DNA of 38,321 nt, taken from assembly GCA_002067795.1 (NCBI GenBank), contig MVQI01000019.1:1-38321 (forward strand), written 5' to 3'. A program made the translations under genes and the position numbers. The DNA comes from Methanosaeta sp. PtaB.Bin039. Its GTDB lineage: Archaea; Halobacteriota; Methanosarcinia; Methanotrichales; Methanotrichaceae. Below are positions 1-7,741 of this stretch, piece after piece. The notes beneath the pieces are model-generated. The model ran no database searches, was not told the DNA's origin, and saw nothing but the letters and a program-made list of their open reading frames with translations. Numbering within the stretch: position 1 is the stretch's first letter; the number at the start of each line of letters is the position of its first letter.

Positions 1-708
1 TCGATGGAGATGGAGTACCATCAGGCGGCAAAGATGTCCAAACCGGTCGATCTTGACCGCCGGCAGACGTTCTACGCCGTCTTATCCCTGCCCAAGAACA
101 GGTATCTGGCCAGGAAGCTCTCCTGGGTCCTTACCATACAGGGCGTGCCGACATACATCCTGTTGCCGACAGGACCAGAGGACCTTGACGGCTTGCTCGA
201 AGCCATAAGACCTCAGTGGGGTCCACTGGATAGGCAGGTTGTTGTGGGTCGAAAAGGGCCGATCGCCCAGCTGGATATGTGCGGGCTGGAAGTGCCTATG
301 GTTCTGATCGACCAGATCTACCAGTTCAAACATGGCGACTTTATGAGATCGATCTGGCCGGAAGCGGCTGCTGATGAGAGGCTCAAAGCTGCAGCAGATG
401 ATATGTTCCGGCGGATGATGCAGATCGCAGATAACACCGGGTCTACCGATAGGCATCGTGCGCTCAATTATCTGTCTGTACGCTGTCCTGAGATCTACAC
501 AAAGGCGGCAGAAGAGATGGGACGGGACTTCTCTCTGACATCGGTTGAGGCCAGAAGGTCCAGGATCAGCGATGATCGAAAGATCATCTCTGTCGTCTTC
601 TCATTCGCCAATAAGAATGGAGCAGCTGAGAAGTATTCCGTCAGAGTGGACGCGAGCGAAGAGTTTCCTTTCCTTGTCACCAAGATGGCGCCATACTATG
701 AAAGGTGA
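1..708 (+). CDS. PatG-type C-terminal domain protein, 5' end outside window
   Basis: The frame is open from the first base, so this is the 3' part of a longer gene and the ATG at base 4 is probably internal. The visible ~235 residues resemble, from memory of the family, the C-terminal domain of PatG cyanobactin-maturation proteases. Matching blocks are QTFYAVLSLPKNRYLARKL near residue 21, IQGVPTYILLPTGPEDLDGL near 46, ADNTGSTDRHRALNYLSVR near 142 and the final EEFPFLVTKMAPYY. In cyanobactin clusters a subtilisin-type domain that cuts and cyclises the precursor lies N-terminal to this region; here that part would be upstream of the window and is not seen. The role of the C-terminal domain itself is not established. 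A cysteine-rich peptide gene follows 26 bp downstream in the same direction, which suggests a processing or maturation partner. The domain call is fairly firm; the pathway is inference. Confidence 0.75.
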   Translation, partial: SMEMEYHQAAKMSKPVDLDRRQTFYAVLSLPKNRYLARKLSWVLTIQGVPTYILLPTGPEDLDGLLEAIRPQWGPLDRQVVVGRKGPIAQLDMCGLEVPMVLIDQIYQFKHGDFMRSIWPEAAADERLKAAADDMFRRMMQIADNTGSTDRHRALNYLSVRCPEIYTKAAEEMGRDFSLTSVEARRSRISDDRKIISVVFSFANKNGAAEKYSVRVDASEEFPFLVTKMAPYYER

Positions 709-734
709 ACAAAGATAAATGGAGGTGAAAAAAT

Positions 735-866
735 ATGGGAACTTGTTGCTGCAAAAATAGTCTCCCACCGTATAACTATTTGGGATGTGAGACAAAGCCA
801 GGCTGCCCTACTAACGTGACCTGCAGGTATCCATACTACAGGGACTGTTGGGGCCCGGGATGTTAA
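735..866 (+). CDS. 43-residue peptide with eight cysteines, possible RiPP-like precursor
   Basis: A short open frame starts at an ATG preceded by a strong Shine-Dalgarno sequence (GGAGGTG, 721-727, 7 bases upstream) and ends at TAA. The peptide starts MGTCCCKNSLPPYNYLG and ends YYRDCWGPGC. It has cysteines at 4, 5, 6, 18, 24, 30, 38 and 43, four tyrosines in YNY/YPYY, and no signal peptide or membrane segment. It lies 26 bp after the PatG-domain gene and just before a hairpin terminator, so the two are probably co-transcribed and this is the last gene. I do not recognise the family. It lacks the recognition sequences of classical cyanobactin precursors. It could be a modified-peptide substrate of the upstream protein, a disulfide-rich or metal-binding miniprotein, or a metal-storage peptide. 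That it is translated is well supported by the ribosome site; its function is inference. Confidence 0.65.
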   Translation: MGTCCCKNSLPPYNYLGCETKPGCPTNVTCRYPYYRDCWGPGC

Positions 867-879
867 GCATGTAGAATAA

Positions 880-916
880 TAAGAGGAGCAATATGTGCTC
901 CTCTTACCAATTTTTT
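880..916 (+). terminator. Hairpin plus T-run terminator
   Basis: A perfect 11-bp stem (880-890 with 896-906, core AAGAGGAGCA) with a 5-base loop is followed by a run of six T at 911-916. It sits 14 bases after the stop of the cysteine-rich peptide gene and would end that transcript. The gene on the other side reads towards it, so it may serve both. Confidence 0.7.
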
Positions 917-2662: not shown

Positions 2663-3259
2663 ATGATGTTAAAGATTTTGATGGCTTTGGCCTCGATAAT
2701 GCTTGTAGGCATGACCCTGGAGGGGGCGGCAGAGGCCGATCCCCTGGGAGCTGGCTATACAATACCTGTCGATCTCAGAAGAACCAGCAGCCTCAGCGAC
2801 AGTGTGCCGATAGTGTTCTTCGATCCTCGAGCCGATCATCTGGGAATTGATCCGCTCATGAGGCCATTGGACCCTGAGCACACCTGGGAGTATATGGACA
2901 AGATCAGCGGCCGGCAGTACCTAAGATCCTATGCGATCCCGGCGGCTCACCTGAGGGGCAGGTGGGCCATCCATCTGACAGGCGGCATGCCAGGCCAGGC
3001 CGATCTGATGCTTTTCCAGGATGGAAATGTGGTACTCGGCAGAGGAGATCTGGCATTCGGCAGTTCCTCATTTTCTGCCACAGCAAGCGGGCAGATCTAC
3101 GGGGATGTGCTCTACCTTGATCTGGTCTCCCCAGAGGACCTCATGCTGTATAAGCTGACTCTGACCATTGGCCAAAATTCCCTGTCCGGCGGCTATAACG
3201 CCTTTAACGGACTGGGCGGGACGTGGTCGGGATCGGCCAGCGGCAAGAGGGTGGCCTAG
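2663..3259 (+). CDS. Secreted protein of unknown function
   Basis: A 198-residue protein with a clear signal peptide (hydrophobic residues 4-22, likely cleavage after GAAEA). The mature part has no cysteines and no catalytic motif that I recognise. The second half (from about residue 95) alternates G, polar and hydrophobic residues as in a small beta-sandwich or barrel (RGRWAIHLTG, GNVVLGRGDLAFG, GLGGTWSGSASG). Similar small exported proteins ending in a GGxWSG-type motif are, from memory, seen repeatedly in Methanothrix genomes, but no function is known. Two ATG codons lie in tandem (2663 and 2666) and either could start. The gene stands alone; the DNA immediately downstream is a decayed gene on the opposite strand. 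Confidence 0.75.
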   Translation: MMLKILMALASIMLVGMTLEGAAEADPLGAGYTIPVDLRRTSSLSDSVPIVFFDPRADHLGIDPLMRPLDPEHTWEYMDKISGRQYLRSYAIPAAHLRGRWAIHLTGGMPGQADLMLFQDGNVVLGRGDLAFGSSSFSATASGQIYGDVLYLDLVSPEDLMLYKLTLTIGQNSLSGGYNAFNGLGGTWSGSASGKRVA

Positions 3260-3294
3260 GCCGCACAGCCGCAGGCTGCAAAGCCCGTCTCTAC

Positions 3295-3362
3295 GAATAC
3301 GCCCCCAGCGTGGTCTGCCGCCCTCCACTCCTTCGGGCTCCCCCCTGCCTCTTTGCTTCCTT
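3295..3362. repeat. Long direct repeat, copy 1 part A
   Basis: These 68 bp match 5743-5810 with a single mismatch. The repeat contains CTCCACTCCTTCGGGCTCC and ends CTTTGCTTCCTT. In copy 2 it joins directly to part B; here 238 bp separate the two parts. Confidence 0.9.
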
Positions 3363-3600
3363 GGCACTTTTCAGCTCCCCGTCGAAGCAGAATACCAGGG
3401 TCTGCCAGCTCAGCCATCCTCTGCATATGCTGATCCATTGCAGGCGAGCAAAGCAGGACGGTTGCCTATCTGGACGTCTGACGCAGGCGCTTTGCCACAT
3501 ATTCGACCATATCGCCTGAGTCCTCGTAGAGGATGGGATCGTGCTCAACGATAAGCAGCGAGTGGTAGATCTCACCGAGAATGGTCATGAGCTAAAAAAG

Positions 3601-3833: not shown

Positions 3834-4373
3834 CTAGGGCACGGCGCTGATGATGCCCCCCGCCTTTAATACGCCTTCGATGTATACCAGACTGTACTTG
3901 TTCTTGGCATTATGGACGGCATCCACCAATCTATCGTCACCTACCCCGAAATTATCTTTGAGGTAAAGGGCAGTAGCTATCAAGGAAAGATCGATAGCTT
4001 TGAAGCCGCCAAATCTTTCTATGAGTTCATCCACGGCACGTTTTTCATCATCATCAAGAAGGTATGAGAACTTTTCTATTTTATTAGTTGGTTTTATGAA
4101 ATATCCCTTATCATCTTCCCAGCTTATCTCGACTATGCCGTTCCGCTCAGCGAAATTAAGCTCTCCAGCTACCTCTGAGGAGTAAGGACCATAATGGTAC
4201 ATAGAGAAATCGAAATCTATTATACCATTTCTTGAAAGCAAATACATCATTTTCTGTATTATTGTCTTCCCAACCTGCGTATCCGGACGCTCCTCGTTCA
4301 GCCTCTTTACTAAATAGCCCATCAATCCTGAAGTCTTGAACATGCTCTCTTCAGAATCTTCACCCATACTCAT
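3834..4373 (-). CDS. YwgA-like protein, partner of the HD-domain hydrolase
   Basis: A 179-residue soluble protein without signal or membrane segment. The region around residues 35-70 (GKTIIQKMMYLLSRNGI, then MYHYGPYSSEVAGEL) resembles the KxxY/GPxS pattern of B. subtilis YwgA and of SocA/DUF4065-like proteins, which have a winged-helix-type fold. It overlaps the HD-domain gene by the four bases ATGA, so translation is coupled. As I recall, ywgA and the HD-domain gene ywfO are also neighbours in B. subtilis, so the pairing is conserved between bacteria and archaea and suggests that this protein regulates or binds the hydrolase. No catalytic residues are evident. The family assignment is from memory and of moderate certainty; the operon is seen directly. 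Confidence 0.7.
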   Translation of the reverse strand: MSMGEDSEESMFKTSGLMGYLVKRLNEERPDTQVGKTIIQKMMYLLSRNGIIDFDFSMYHYGPYSSEVAGELNFAERNGIVEISWEDDKGYFIKPTNKIEKFSYLLDDDEKRAVDELIERFGGFKAIDLSLIATALYLKDNFGVGDDRLVDAVHNAKNKYSLVYIEGVLKAGGIISAVP

Positions 4374-5641
4374 CTCAGAACCTCCTCAGCACGTAACCGA
4401 TCTCCTGGCTTTACATAGATCCTTATTTGTTTGACATCACCTATATTTTTTACTATGTTTGAGTAATATGATAGGGGACGTGGGCTCCTTTCTCGTCGAG
4501 ACACTATCATTATCTCCTTATCGCCATTCTTACTATTATTCAAATTATACCATAATTTCTCGGATCTGTCCTCGTAATACTCTATTCCAGCGTTTTCAAG
4601 AGACCTCTTCTTGGCCTGCAGTTCAGCCTCATCTTCTTGATTTGGCACTTCCGGCGTTGAATAGACCTCTCTGATATGGCTTCTGCTCATTATCGCTGAA
4701 CAATCCGGATCGTCGCTTTTGCCTCTAAACCGATTCCATAGCGCATAGTCATCAAGGCCTATGAATTGCTCAAGGGATGTAAGGTCAGGACCTGGAAATT
4801 TTCCTCCATTCAGTATGTGCCCCATGGCGCTTTTAAGGTGGTAATCAAAGGCCCTTCGTGTCTTATGGAAATAAACCTGAGTGAATAGTTGATATCTCGC
4901 GATGACCACCGCCTCGGCTACATGCCAGCCATCTCTGTCCACCCCAAGAACAACTTCGCCAGACTCTGGCTCTATCCCCAGGGCGAGGGTGTTTATCAAT
5001 CTTGAATGGTCATAGATCCCGTATTTGACCCCTGTATGATACGAATCTCTTAGTAAGTAATCACCCCTATCAGCATCGAGTTGGCTGGAGATCAGCACTT
5101 TCCAGAAAAGCCTTTCGCCGAGGACCTCTGGATTTCCTTCGATTAGTGCTGCCACCTCTTCGGCCTCAATCCTGTAGTTTGTCCTGTTTATCGGGTGATC
5201 TTCAATAATATTTTTCAATATATTTTTTATAATTGAAATAGTATAATCTTCGTGTTTGAAGGGTTTGCCCCTCTTGGCATTCACGGGCATTATCTCTTCC
5301 GATGTATGGGAGAAAGGAGCGTGCCCGACGTCATGGAGCAATGCAGCAAGGCGAATGAGCTGCCTATCCTTTTTTAGCCCAGCCTGGTTATAACTCAAAC
5401 GATCCTTCAATAGGCCTCGGTCTTTCTCGATAATTGAATCATACATTTTAGTCGCTAAATGCATTACTCCCAGCGAGTGCTCAAATCTTGTGTGAACGGC
5501 CCCTGGATAAACCATCTCAGTCAGAGCAAGTTGCTTAATTCTCCTTAACCTCTGAAATACGGGATGCCCGATGATGTTCTTCTCCCAGTCATTGAAGGAC
5601 ACAAAACCGTAGACAGGGTCCCTAATCTCGTATTGCTTCAT
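4370..5641 (-). CDS. HD-domain (SAMHD1/dGTPase-like) nucleotide phosphohydrolase
   Basis: A 423-residue cytoplasmic protein of the HD superfamily, close in layout to B. subtilis YwfO and Enterococcus EF1143, which hydrolyse dNTPs to deoxynucleosides and triphosphate. The N-terminal signature is RDPVYGFVSF. Metal ligands of the HD domain are visible: H55 in TRFEHSLGVMH, H103 and D104 in LLHDVGHAPFSH, and D189/D191 in QLDADRGDYLLRD. H130-E131 (FKHEDY) lies in the active-site loop. All key residues are intact, so activity is likely. The C-terminal ~120 residues are charged and less conserved. It is first in an operon with the YwgA-like gene. The likely promoter lies 45-60 bases upstream within a 10-bp inverted repeat. 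Such enzymes control dNTP pools and in some systems restrict phage; which applies here cannot be told. Confidence 0.88.
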   Translation of the reverse strand: MKQYEIRDPVYGFVSFNDWEKNIIGHPVFQRLRRIKQLALTEMVYPGAVHTRFEHSLGVMHLATKMYDSIIEKDRGLLKDRLSYNQAGLKKDRQLIRLAALLHDVGHAPFSHTSEEIMPVNAKRGKPFKHEDYTISIIKNILKNIIEDHPINRTNYRIEAEEVAALIEGNPEVLGERLFWKVLISSQLDADRGDYLLRDSYHTGVKYGIYDHSRLINTLALGIEPESGEVVLGVDRDGWHVAEAVVIARYQLFTQVYFHKTRRAFDYHLKSAMGHILNGGKFPGPDLTSLEQFIGLDDYALWNRFRGKSDDPDCSAIMSRSHIREVYSTPEVPNQEDEAELQAKKRSLENAGIEYYEDRSEKLWYNLNNSKNGDKEIMIVSRRERSPRPLSYYSNIVKNIGDVKQIRIYVKPGDRLRAEEVLR

Positions 5642-5648
5642 CTAGACA

Positions 5649-5707
5649 CCCGCGTTTTCATCTCATCAACGACTCAAAGCCTTTTGTGATTAAATACAAA
5701 ACGCGGG
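5649..5707 (-). promoter_or_regulatory. Promoter region of the HD operon framed by a 10-bp inverted repeat
   Basis: CCCGCGTTTT (5649-5658) and AAAACGCGGG (5698-5707) are perfect inverted copies 39 bases apart. On the minus strand a TATA-like GTATTTAAT (about 5688-5696) lies just inside the distal arm, about 50 bases from the HD gene's ATG. The arms could be operator half-sites or the stem of a long hairpin. Confidence 0.45.
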
Positions 5708-5742
5708 AGCGGGGCGAAAGTAAGAGGTATGGCCGGTCTCAA

Positions 5743-6007
5743 GAATACGCCCCCACCGTGGTCTGCCGCCCTCCACTCCTTCGGGCTCCCCCCTGCCTCT
5801 TTGCTTCCTTAGGTGAACGCCTGGCTGATGTCGAGGTCGGTGACGGTGCGTGCAGGCGGCCGTGGAGTTGCCGCTGACAAAGAGAGCCTTGTACTGCCGG
5901 ATGTGCTGCTGGGAGTCAATCGACTCTATCAGCATCTCGGGGAGAGCGACCAGGACGCTCAGCGTCTCCTCCTGGAGGGAGACGGTGGGATGAAGCTCTA
6001 TATCCAT
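5743..6007 (-). pseudogene. Decayed gene of unknown function, copy 2
   Basis: A second copy of the remnant at 3260-3815, in the same orientation. It keeps LPEMLIESIDSQQHIRQYKAL and KALFVSGNS, then shifts frame because one base is missing relative to copy 1 (near 5850). It lacks the 238-bp middle portion of copy 1. The 206 bp 5743-5948 are the direct repeat proper. No start or complete frame remains. Confidence 0.6.
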
Positions 6008-6282: not shown

Positions 6283-6627
6283 ATGGCCCAAAAATCCGTC
6301 ACAGACCTGCGAGTGAAGATCTTGAGCGCGCTTTCAGACCCAACCAGGCTCGAGCTGCTGGAGTACCTATCTGCAGGCGAGCGCTGCGTCTGCGAGATAC
6401 TCCCCGCATTTCAGAGATCACAGTCCACCATATCCAAACACTTGAACATACTCCATGAAGCCGACATCCTGGAACGCGAGATAGACGGCAAGCGAACGGT
6501 CTACCGCATAAGAGACGCTCAGGTATTCGACTTGATTCGCATGGTAGATTGCCTGGCCTACAGGCAGATATCGCAGCTTGCTGAAGCGGGAAAAGTCCTC
6601 GAGAGATCGCTGAACAAAAGGGGATGA
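6283..6627 (+). CDS. arsR: ArsR-family arsenic/metal-responsive repressor 1
   Basis: A 114-residue winged-helix protein of the ArsR/SmtB family. SDPTRLELLEYL begins the DNA-binding domain. The metalloid-binding motif ERCVCEIL is intact with C35 and C37, the pattern of arsenite/antimonite-sensing ArsR. The recognition helix region is QSTISKHLNILHEADILERE, and the beta-wing KRTVYRI follows. As a dimer it should sit on the promoter of its own transcript and leave when As(III) binds the cysteine pair. It is followed after 22 bp by the permease gene and is probably co-transcribed with it. The ATG at 6283 is the only reasonable start. The dimer's operator was not identified with confidence. Confidence 0.92.
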   Translation: MAQKSVTDLRVKILSALSDPTRLELLEYLSAGERCVCEILPAFQRSQSTISKHLNILHEADILEREIDGKRTVYRIRDAQVFDLIRMVDCLAYRQISQLAEAGKVLERSLNKRG

Positions 6628-6649
6628 TGTCACGATCGCCTACACAGCC

Positions 6650-7741
6650 GTGGCAATGGCAGCCCTTCAAGCAGGAATCTCAACACTGCTCGAATATCTC
6701 TCAGCTCATGTCTTGACCTGCCTGATACCGGCATTCTTCATAGCTGGGGCAATATCAGCGCTCCTCAAGAAGGAGGTGGTCCTGAGGTACTTTGGGGCAG
6801 ATGCACCAAAGTGGCTGTGCTATAGCGTTGCAGCCACATCCGGAACAATACTGGCAGTCTGCAGCTGCACTATCCTGCCCCTGTTTGCAGGAATAGAGAA
6901 GAAGGGTGCAGGAATAGGCCCTGCATCGGCGTTTCTCTTCTCGGGTCCTGCCATAAACATCCTGGCCATTGTCCTCACCGCCAGAGTCCTGGGCCTGGAC
7001 CTGGGAATTGCCAGGGCGGCGGCGGCAGTCTCGATGGCTGTTGTTATTGGCCTGATAATGGCTGCGATATTCGATAGAGGCCCTGATAAGTGCGCGACTT
7101 CACAAGGCAATGCATCGGCTCAAGTCGCCCACGCAGCGACCGAATCCCCTGGCATGGATGAGAACGATAAGGTCCCGGTCCTATTGCTGTCGATCCTAAT
7201 CGGCGTTCTGCTATCCGCCACCTCGAACCTCGAGTTCATGCTGAAATGGGCAATGGTGGCTGCATTTATAGCGGCCGCTGCCTTTGTGCTGGCGGCATAC
7301 CTCTCATCAGAGGAGAGGAGCGCATTCTTCAGCGAGACGTGGTTTCTGACAAGGAAGATCTTCCCATTGCTGGTGGCTGGAACTTTCATAACAGGAGTTG
7401 TTGGCTACTTCATTCCGGCCGAGCTGCTCAGAACATTTTTGGGCTCGAACAGCTTCATCGCATGCCTCATAGCCTCGGTTATCGGGGCTCTGCTTTACAT
7501 GCCCACTCTACTGGAGGTACCCATTGTTGGCACGCTCTTCGGTTACAGCACGGGAATAACAGCCCCGGGCCCTGCCCTATCTCTGCTCCTCGCTGGCCCA
7601 TCTCTCAGCCTGCCGAGCATGATAGTCATCACCAGAGTCGTAGGCCCAAAGAAAGGCGGCGCTTACATCCTCCTGGTCGTGATAGTCTCGACTCTGGTTG
7701 GGGTGCTCTACGGAGCAATAGCGAACATGAACGCTGGATGA
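6650..7741 (+). CDS. ArsP/DUF318-type permease
   Basis: A 363-residue integral membrane protein of the DUF318 permease family (PF03773), which includes the trivalent organoarsenical exporter ArsP. About eight hydrophobic segments form two halves separated by a hydrophilic loop (about residues 145-172). The signature cysteines are in AVCSCTILPLFAGI (C71, C73), followed by GPASAFLFSGPAINILAIV; the second half carries ALLYMPTLLEVPIVGTLF. The GTG at 6650 is the first usable start, with an ATG two codons later. No good ribosome site is visible. It follows the CVC-type arsR by 22 bp, so it is expected to be induced by arsenicals. The substrate could be methylated As(III), As(III) or another metal; the family does not decide this. 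Confidence 0.88.
   Translation: MAMAALQAGISTLLEYLSAHVLTCLIPAFFIAGAISALLKKEVVLRYFGADAPKWLCYSVAATSGTILAVCSCTILPLFAGIEKKGAGIGPASAFLFSGPAINILAIVLTARVLGLDLGIARAAAAVSMAVVIGLIMAAIFDRGPDKCATSQGNASAQVAHAATESPGMDENDKVPVLLLSILIGVLLSATSNLEFMLKWAMVAAFIAAAAFVLAAYLSSEERSAFFSETWFLTRKIFPLLVAGTFITGVVGYFIPAELLRTFLGSNSFIACLIASVIGALLYMPTLLEVPIVGTLFGYSTGITAPGPALSLLLAGPSLSLPSMIVITRVVGPKKGGAYILLVVIVSTLVGVLYGAIANMNAG

Follow-up and report, generated by a model that had tools for sequence, protein, structure and literature searches.

A Standalone PatG-Type Domain and a Short Cysteine-Rich Peptide Form a Conserved Gene Pair in Methanothrix That Looks Like a Reduced Form of a Wider Peptide-Making Operon

The Locus

The stretch of DNA considered here (the window) comprises 38,321 nucleotides of Methanosaeta sp. 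PtaB.Bin039 (contig MVQI01000019.1), and its features are collected in Table 1. The window starts where its contig starts (C19, position 1), and the 5' end of the first gene, which encodes a PatG-type protein, lies beyond the contig. About 70 N-terminal residues of the protein fall past the contig end, and a search of the rest of the assembly did not recover this part. Positions 1–705 match the Pfam families PatG_C (2.2e-30) and PatG_D (1.1e-22), and the gene closes with a stop codon at 706–708. The protein is called PatG-DUF (or DUF) below.

After a gap of 26 nt, the ATG at position 735 opens a peptide gene with its stop codon at 864–866. Three of the eight cysteines of the peptide are consecutive (C4-C5-C6) and the others occupy positions 18, 24, 30, 38, and 43. 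No known family in Pfam or NCBIfam was found for this peptide or its relatives. The hairpin behind it consists of an 11-pair stem (880–906) followed by CCAATTTTTT (z −4.8), and none of 200 shuffled sequences was as stable. An earlier note, made from the letters of this DNA, had listed a match to the C-terminal domain of PatG, the 26-bp gap, an ideal ribosome site, eight cysteines in 43 residues, and a terminator, all of which hold.

Table 1. Features of the window, with the basis on which each was assigned.
Feature	Position	Strand	Basis and remarks
Standalone PatG_D+PatG_C (PatG-DUF) gene, 3' part, 235 aa	1–708	+	Pfam
Shine-Dalgarno motif GGAGGTGA	721–728	+	Sequence; perfect, 6 nt ahead of the peptide ATG
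Peptide MGTCCCKNSLPPYNYLGCETKPGCPTNVTCRYPYYRDCWGPGC, 43 aa, 8 Cys	735–866	+	ORF; equivalent ORF at 14/14 Methanothrix-family loci
Intrinsic-terminator-like hairpin and T-run	880–916	+	Stem folding versus shuffles
TPR protein gene, convergent, apparent signal sequence	955–1890	−	Pfam TPR
Short translated stretch VCRPPLLRAPPCLFASL, first copy	~3223–3440
SocA/Panacea-domain gene and HD-domain gene	3834–5641	−	SocA/Panacea match weak, at cut-off
Short translated stretch VCRPPLLRAPPCLFASL, second copy	~5686–5900
Very large secreted S8 protease, 1439 aa	33522–37841	−	60 bits to T7SS_mycosin

Further into the window, the two places that encode the common stretch VCRPPLLRAPPCLFASL suggest a repeated element flanking the SocA/Panacea and HD-domain genes. 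The latter two adjoin each other with a 4 nt overlap and are possibly a toxin-antitoxin-like or defence pair. An HD-domain gene likewise lies upstream of the S8 (subtilisin) gene at locus L030.

A Conserved Gene Pair in the Methanothrix Family

The PatG-domain gene was present in 6 of 61 related genomes, all from the Methanothrix family, and these six genomes provided 14 readable 3' ends of the gene. Each of the 14 is followed, 22–28 nt downstream, by an ORF of 39–71 aa with 6 or 8 cysteines. The Shine-Dalgarno motif of the window peptide recurs before the other peptides of the family. All of them start with a cysteine cluster (CC, CxC, or CCxC) inside the first seven residues, and the cysteine count is even in every case. 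The closest comparison is offered by the genome PtaB.Bin018 (locus L023), whose peptide is identical to that of the window at 40 of 43 positions (93%). The codons of the two differ by 10 synonymous and 3 replacement changes, and because dN is 0.05 and dS 0.60 (ratio ~0.08), the window peptide is regarded as a selected coding sequence under purifying selection.

The window peptide and one other were searched in the 61 genomes, and strong matches occurred solely beside a PatG-DUF gene. In Methanothrix, DUF and peptide therefore form a genuine gene pair that is both conserved and specific. The earlier note had proposed such an archaeal pair of PatG-type domain and peptide, and the proposal is borne out by the Pfam match, the family distribution, and the 14 loci; a cysteine-rich frame does follow the other archaeal PatG-domain genes of this family, and neither peptide turned up alone.

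The two members of the pair are conserved to different degrees. Between the window and PtaB.Bin018 the peptide is the better conserved, the DUFs being 67% identical. The tandem copies in genome G015 show the reverse, as its three DUF genes are 86–97% alike and each lies beside a different peptide.

A convergent ORF, mostly of a secreted TPR/SBBP-propeller group, ends 15–334 nt past the peptide at 13 of the 14 loci. Since this group is a multi-copy family, and since part of the recurrence is due to the tandem duplication of whole units, the convergent gene is considered associated with the DUF-peptide system, its membership not being established.

The Standalone PatG-DUF Protein

Full-length standalone relatives of the window protein measure 303–320 aa, of which ~50 form a disordered N-terminal tail ahead of PatG_D and PatG_C. 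These are the only domains in the full-length relatives (the window gene itself is partial), and the S8 domain that the earlier note had considered for the upstream part of the gene is absent from them, so the protein is not a PatG protease. A model of the 304-aa relative in PtaB.Bin018 (pLDDT 83) gave the PatG-DUF structure 4uvq as its sole significant PDB match (Foldseek E 3.8e-14, TM 0.64/0.73), and 4uvq was also the sole significant match by sequence (2.5e-8). Both comparisons indicate that the standalone protein has the PatG C-terminal DUF fold, as predicted by the model.

Among 42 standalone sequences, residues C162, H220, D212, N213, R221, N224, E71, E73, R106, R284, and D286 are invariant. 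The first three align with F, D, and H in PatG, and the standalone family therefore has conserved residues of its own. The structure of PatG-DUF has been solved and revealed a novel fold with no assigned function, with zinc present in the crystal (PMC4259220). The zinc site was considered as a mechanism and set aside, since the alignment shows that the zinc ligands are not kept in the standalone family.

The tail carries C-x-C or C-x-x-C in 33 of 41 complete standalone DUFs. By inspection, this motif often comes after P-Q, like the stretch preceding the first cysteine of the peptides described below. In some disordered tails (e.g., L049, L056, L064) it reads V-x-P-Q...C-x(1-2)-C, similar to the point where leader and core meet in the peptides. 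This tail motif could be an S8 site or an internal pseudo-substrate.

The Wider Operon Across Phyla

A scan of 84,980 species genomes revealed 59 loci with the same standalone domain, in taxa that include Nitrosospira, Acidobacteria, Actinobacteria, Cyanobacteria, Anaerolineae, Methanoperedens, Methanophagales, Nitrosocosmicus, and others. Most of them show a standalone PatG domain of ~300 aa (~305) with short cysteine-rich ORFs close behind. A cysteine-rich ORF with a ribosome site follows 40 of 58 DUF genes versus ~18 of 308 control genes; the raw control count was 35 of 325, from which inspection removed 17 matches that were themselves DUF or S8 members of the system.

At 44 loci, a PatA/PatG-type S8 subtilase of ~290 aa lies beside the DUF, usually just upstream and on the same strand, and its catalytic triad motifs are recognisable in most copies. 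In three cases tested, it matches positions 1–179 of the PatA/PatG family model TIGR03895 with 92–111 bits, and the standalone DUF matches positions ~290–599 in the C-terminal half; the two genes therefore correspond to separated halves of PatA/PatG. A third component is a small protein, RLPGF....IGLGD.IKR.T...GIKPCGGC.RRAAALNRW (the CGGC protein), which occurs at 38 loci (among L032–L083), mostly between S8 and DUF. It has no family in Pfam, and none of the archaeal loci was found to encode it. The same operon occurs on closed plasmids of Mesorhizobium, Sinorhizobium, and Streptomyces, with the CGGC protein in all three plasmid loci examined (L115–L117). The plasmid annotation reads "S8 family serine peptidase" and "hypothetical protein", and the leader peptides are largely unannotated. 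No DUF relatives were found in viral contigs or phage records.

A survey of 66 same-strand neighbours of these genes brought up no modification enzyme that recurs. The commonest Pfam family there is AMP-binding (5, mostly in Nitrosospira), and radical SAM enzymes (rSAM) occur twice. YcaO heterocyclases, oxidases, and prenyltransferases are neither among the 25 commonest families of these neighbours nor a recurrent cluster; the upstream side of the window is absent from this comparison. At L079 and L080 (Nitrososphaerales), the system takes a variant form that includes an rSAM enzyme: DUF, S8, a small protein, the rSAM enzyme, and a PGFTAQ-type cysteine peptide are encoded in a single stretch.

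Leader-Type Peptides

Outside Methanothrix, the short cysteine-rich ORFs have a common leader, M..PGFTAEASLY.....Y. In total, 111 matches were collected, up to nine per locus; as this set was gathered by motif search, some first residues are fixed by design and a few spurious ORFs were admitted. The strict motif also occurs in 31 of 40 ORFs for which cysteine content and a ribosome site were the sole criteria of choice. The first 14 positions show an ungapped pairwise identity of 0.48 and the last 30 one of 0.07, and cysteine makes up 0.6% of the first 30 residues versus 11% of those after. Both the spacing and the length of the cores are hypervariable, and the motif V-x-P-Q precedes the first cysteine. 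On these sequence patterns, the wider system appears to follow the conserved-leader, variable-core scheme of RiPPs, which was not seen in the Methanothrix peptides. The cysteine count is even in 93 of the 111 (naive p 2e-13, a value overstated since related peptides are not independent).

Even counts also fit metal sites. A metal-handling pair would make the peptide a metallothionein-like protein or an Fe-S scaffold, with a DUF that loads it or senses the metal. The parity, the CC and CxC clusters at the peptide N-terminus, the zinc in the PatG-DUF crystal (PMC4259220), and the C-x-C or C-x-x-C tail of most standalone DUFs all point in this direction. However, cores so variable in spacing and length speak against it, as do zinc ligands that are not kept, the protease and leader of the parent system, which point to processed peptides, and the want of a convincing match to any known metal-binding family. 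We regard this explanation as unlikely.

A Probable Reduced Form in Methanothrix

Several parts of the wider operon are missing from Methanothrix. No dedicated S8 was found in its genomes, which gave solely weak generic subtilase matches, mostly in large ORFs; there are no leader-type peptides in them and no co-distributed modification enzyme was found. The Methanothrix peptide has no recognised signal sequence, and no exporter is tied to it. Judged from gene content, the pair looks like a stripped-down, two-gene archaeal form of the wider system. The joint absence of a leader and its presumptive peptidase makes sense, and would leave the domain and the peptide as the irreducible pair.

The large secreted S8 protease near the far end of the window was considered as the PatG protease and rejected, as it has another architecture and no match to TIGR03895.

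The same genomes also hold rSAM enzymes related to those of the Clo7bot/CcpM system (TIGR04068), which likewise involves short cysteine-rich peptides, and these maturases might modify the Methanothrix peptides. One rSAM pair adjoins the three DUF-peptide units in G015, and the source genome of the window has two such pairs, on other contigs. Yet the rSAM genes and the DUF-peptide pair do not occur in the same set of genomes: in a search with G026 and G035 left out, G012 has the rSAM genes without the DUF, and the DUF-bearing G004 and G020 have no rSAM genes. The rSAM pair moreover has an ABC transporter and a large secreted S8 of its own. The pair beside the G015 units was accordingly dismissed as the maturase, and this explanation as a whole is very unlikely.

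Proposed Mechanism

The reading that we favour, with a probability of roughly 55%, is that the Methanothrix pair is a reduced two-gene form of a RiPP-like system for disulfide-rich peptides, with the PatG domain as the shared factor that handles them. It builds on what can be read directly from the genomes, namely the operon, the division of the peptides into leader and core, the S8 triad motifs, the fixed adjacency of DUF and peptide, and the absence of leader and protease in Methanothrix. In the full form, the S8 enzyme (~290 aa), often the CGGC protein, and the standalone DUF would serve one to several leader/core precursors. The PatG domain would bind the peptide, via the leader where there is one and probably via the N-terminal cysteine cluster in Methanothrix, and would present it for maturation. 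This step would most likely be oxidative folding to a disulfide-bonded form, given that the great majority of cysteine counts are even and that neither a heterocyclase nor a lanthionine-forming or other modification enzyme recurs in the operon. Where a leader is present, the S8 enzyme would remove it, perhaps near V-x-P-Q ahead of the first cysteine. The mature peptide might be a bacteriocin, a surface component, or a metal binder.

Some points weigh against this reading. That the DUF binds or modifies the peptide is something we infer from gene arrangement. By NMR, PatG-DUF bound neither unmodified nor heterocyclised PatE (PMC4259220), which calls for caution, although PatE differs from the peptides considered here. 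The Methanothrix peptide has neither leader, recognised signal, nor tied exporter, so its disulfides would have to contend with the reducing cell, or the peptide be exported by some route. The earlier suggestion that the peptide is the substrate of the upstream protein gains from the leader peptides found with a PatA/PatG-like protease in other phyla, while the chemical modification it implies stays conjectural.

Another way to read the pair is as a bacteriocin-like peptide that is secreted and a DUF that confers immunity to it. Hypervariable cysteine-rich cores, tandem peptides, and the tandem duplication of whole units in G015 would suit such a role. The pattern of conservation is, however, the reverse of that in co-varying toxin-immunity pairs, since the DUF is conserved (~45–50% identity across phyla, with C162, H220, and D212 invariant) and the peptides are not, and a single DUF serves several unrelated peptides. 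In G015 too, a conserved DUF serves variable peptides, which argues for a general maturation factor. An immunity function is therefore rather improbable.

A bolder version of the peptide-handling reading, which is put forward tentatively and is doubtful in its entirety, would make the standalone DUF an oxidative-folding or cysteine-targeting enzyme at the core of an undescribed archaeal-bacterial peptide class. Its tail would mimic the leader/core junction; the tail, Cys162, and His220 would shuttle disulfides; and in Methanothrix it would work free of leader and protease.

Relation to Known Systems

The nearest known relatives are the PatA/PatG proteins (TIGR03895; 4uvq), with which the system has in common the DUF fold, an S8 enzyme matching the N-terminal part of TIGR03895, and short precursor-like genes next door. 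Here, in contrast, the DUF is a separate gene with invariant residues of its own, and the archaeal pair comes without a protease. Cyanobactin precursors contain the cleavage sites G(L/V)E(A/P)S and AYDG (PMC10885120). Both are absent from the 43-aa window peptide and from the 13 other Methanothrix-family peptides, as the earlier note had remarked for the former, and the peptides have no cyanobactin recognition sequence in common with PatA/PatG substrates. Against the TIGR03895 cut-off of 421 bits, the window fragment scores 25.9 and two full-length relatives 29.0 and 31.1, all below it. Membership in the cyanobactins fails because there is no fused protease, the scores are far below cut-off, and the recognition sites are missing.

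True cyanobactin-like chemistry, with the cysteines heterocyclised or macrocyclised, would draw on the PatG domain itself and on the split PatA/PatG-family S8 of the relatives. It is hard to reconcile with Methanothrix loci that have no S8, with neighbours among which no YcaO or oxidase recurs, with peptides devoid of the cleavage sites, and with a cysteine parity that is unexpected if heterocycles form from single cysteines. We consider it highly improbable.

The standalone PatG-domain system and the leader motif are not described in the open-access literature searched, Pfam, or NCBIfam, and no paper in that literature brings PatG and Methanothrix together; the wider peptide-making operon is apparently undescribed. 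It exposes widespread, mostly unannotated cysteine-rich peptides with a recognisable leader, and a leaderless form in methanogens. Gene order ties the DUF to a cysteine-rich peptide in every Methanothrix-family case and at most loci across phyla, and this two-gene arrangement, free of protease and further enzymes, makes a direct test of DUF function possible.

Two further peptide systems came to light in archaeal genomes. Large S8 proteases of ~1255–1275 aa (L113, L114, L112), similar to the one in the window, follow a cassette of two rSAM genes and an ABC transporter elsewhere in the source genome and in G015. The first rSAM enzyme is TIGR04068-like and the second has a SPASM domain, and the cassette with its protease is a candidate for a separate peptide system. 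In the Methanosarcina-like genomes G355 and G404, S8 and DUF are fused in one gene (L109, 6784–8922, and L110, 7004–9178, both on the minus strand), unlike in Methanothrix. These proteins are archaeal members of the PatA/PatG family, and L109 (G355) scores 679 bits to TIGR03895, above the cut-off. Small cysteine-containing ORFs lie downstream (at L110 near 6584–6839, minus strand), with a different leader-like start, M..P.QAKPV.RN.S.A.IE.G, and are possibly archaeal precursors of the PatA/PatG type.
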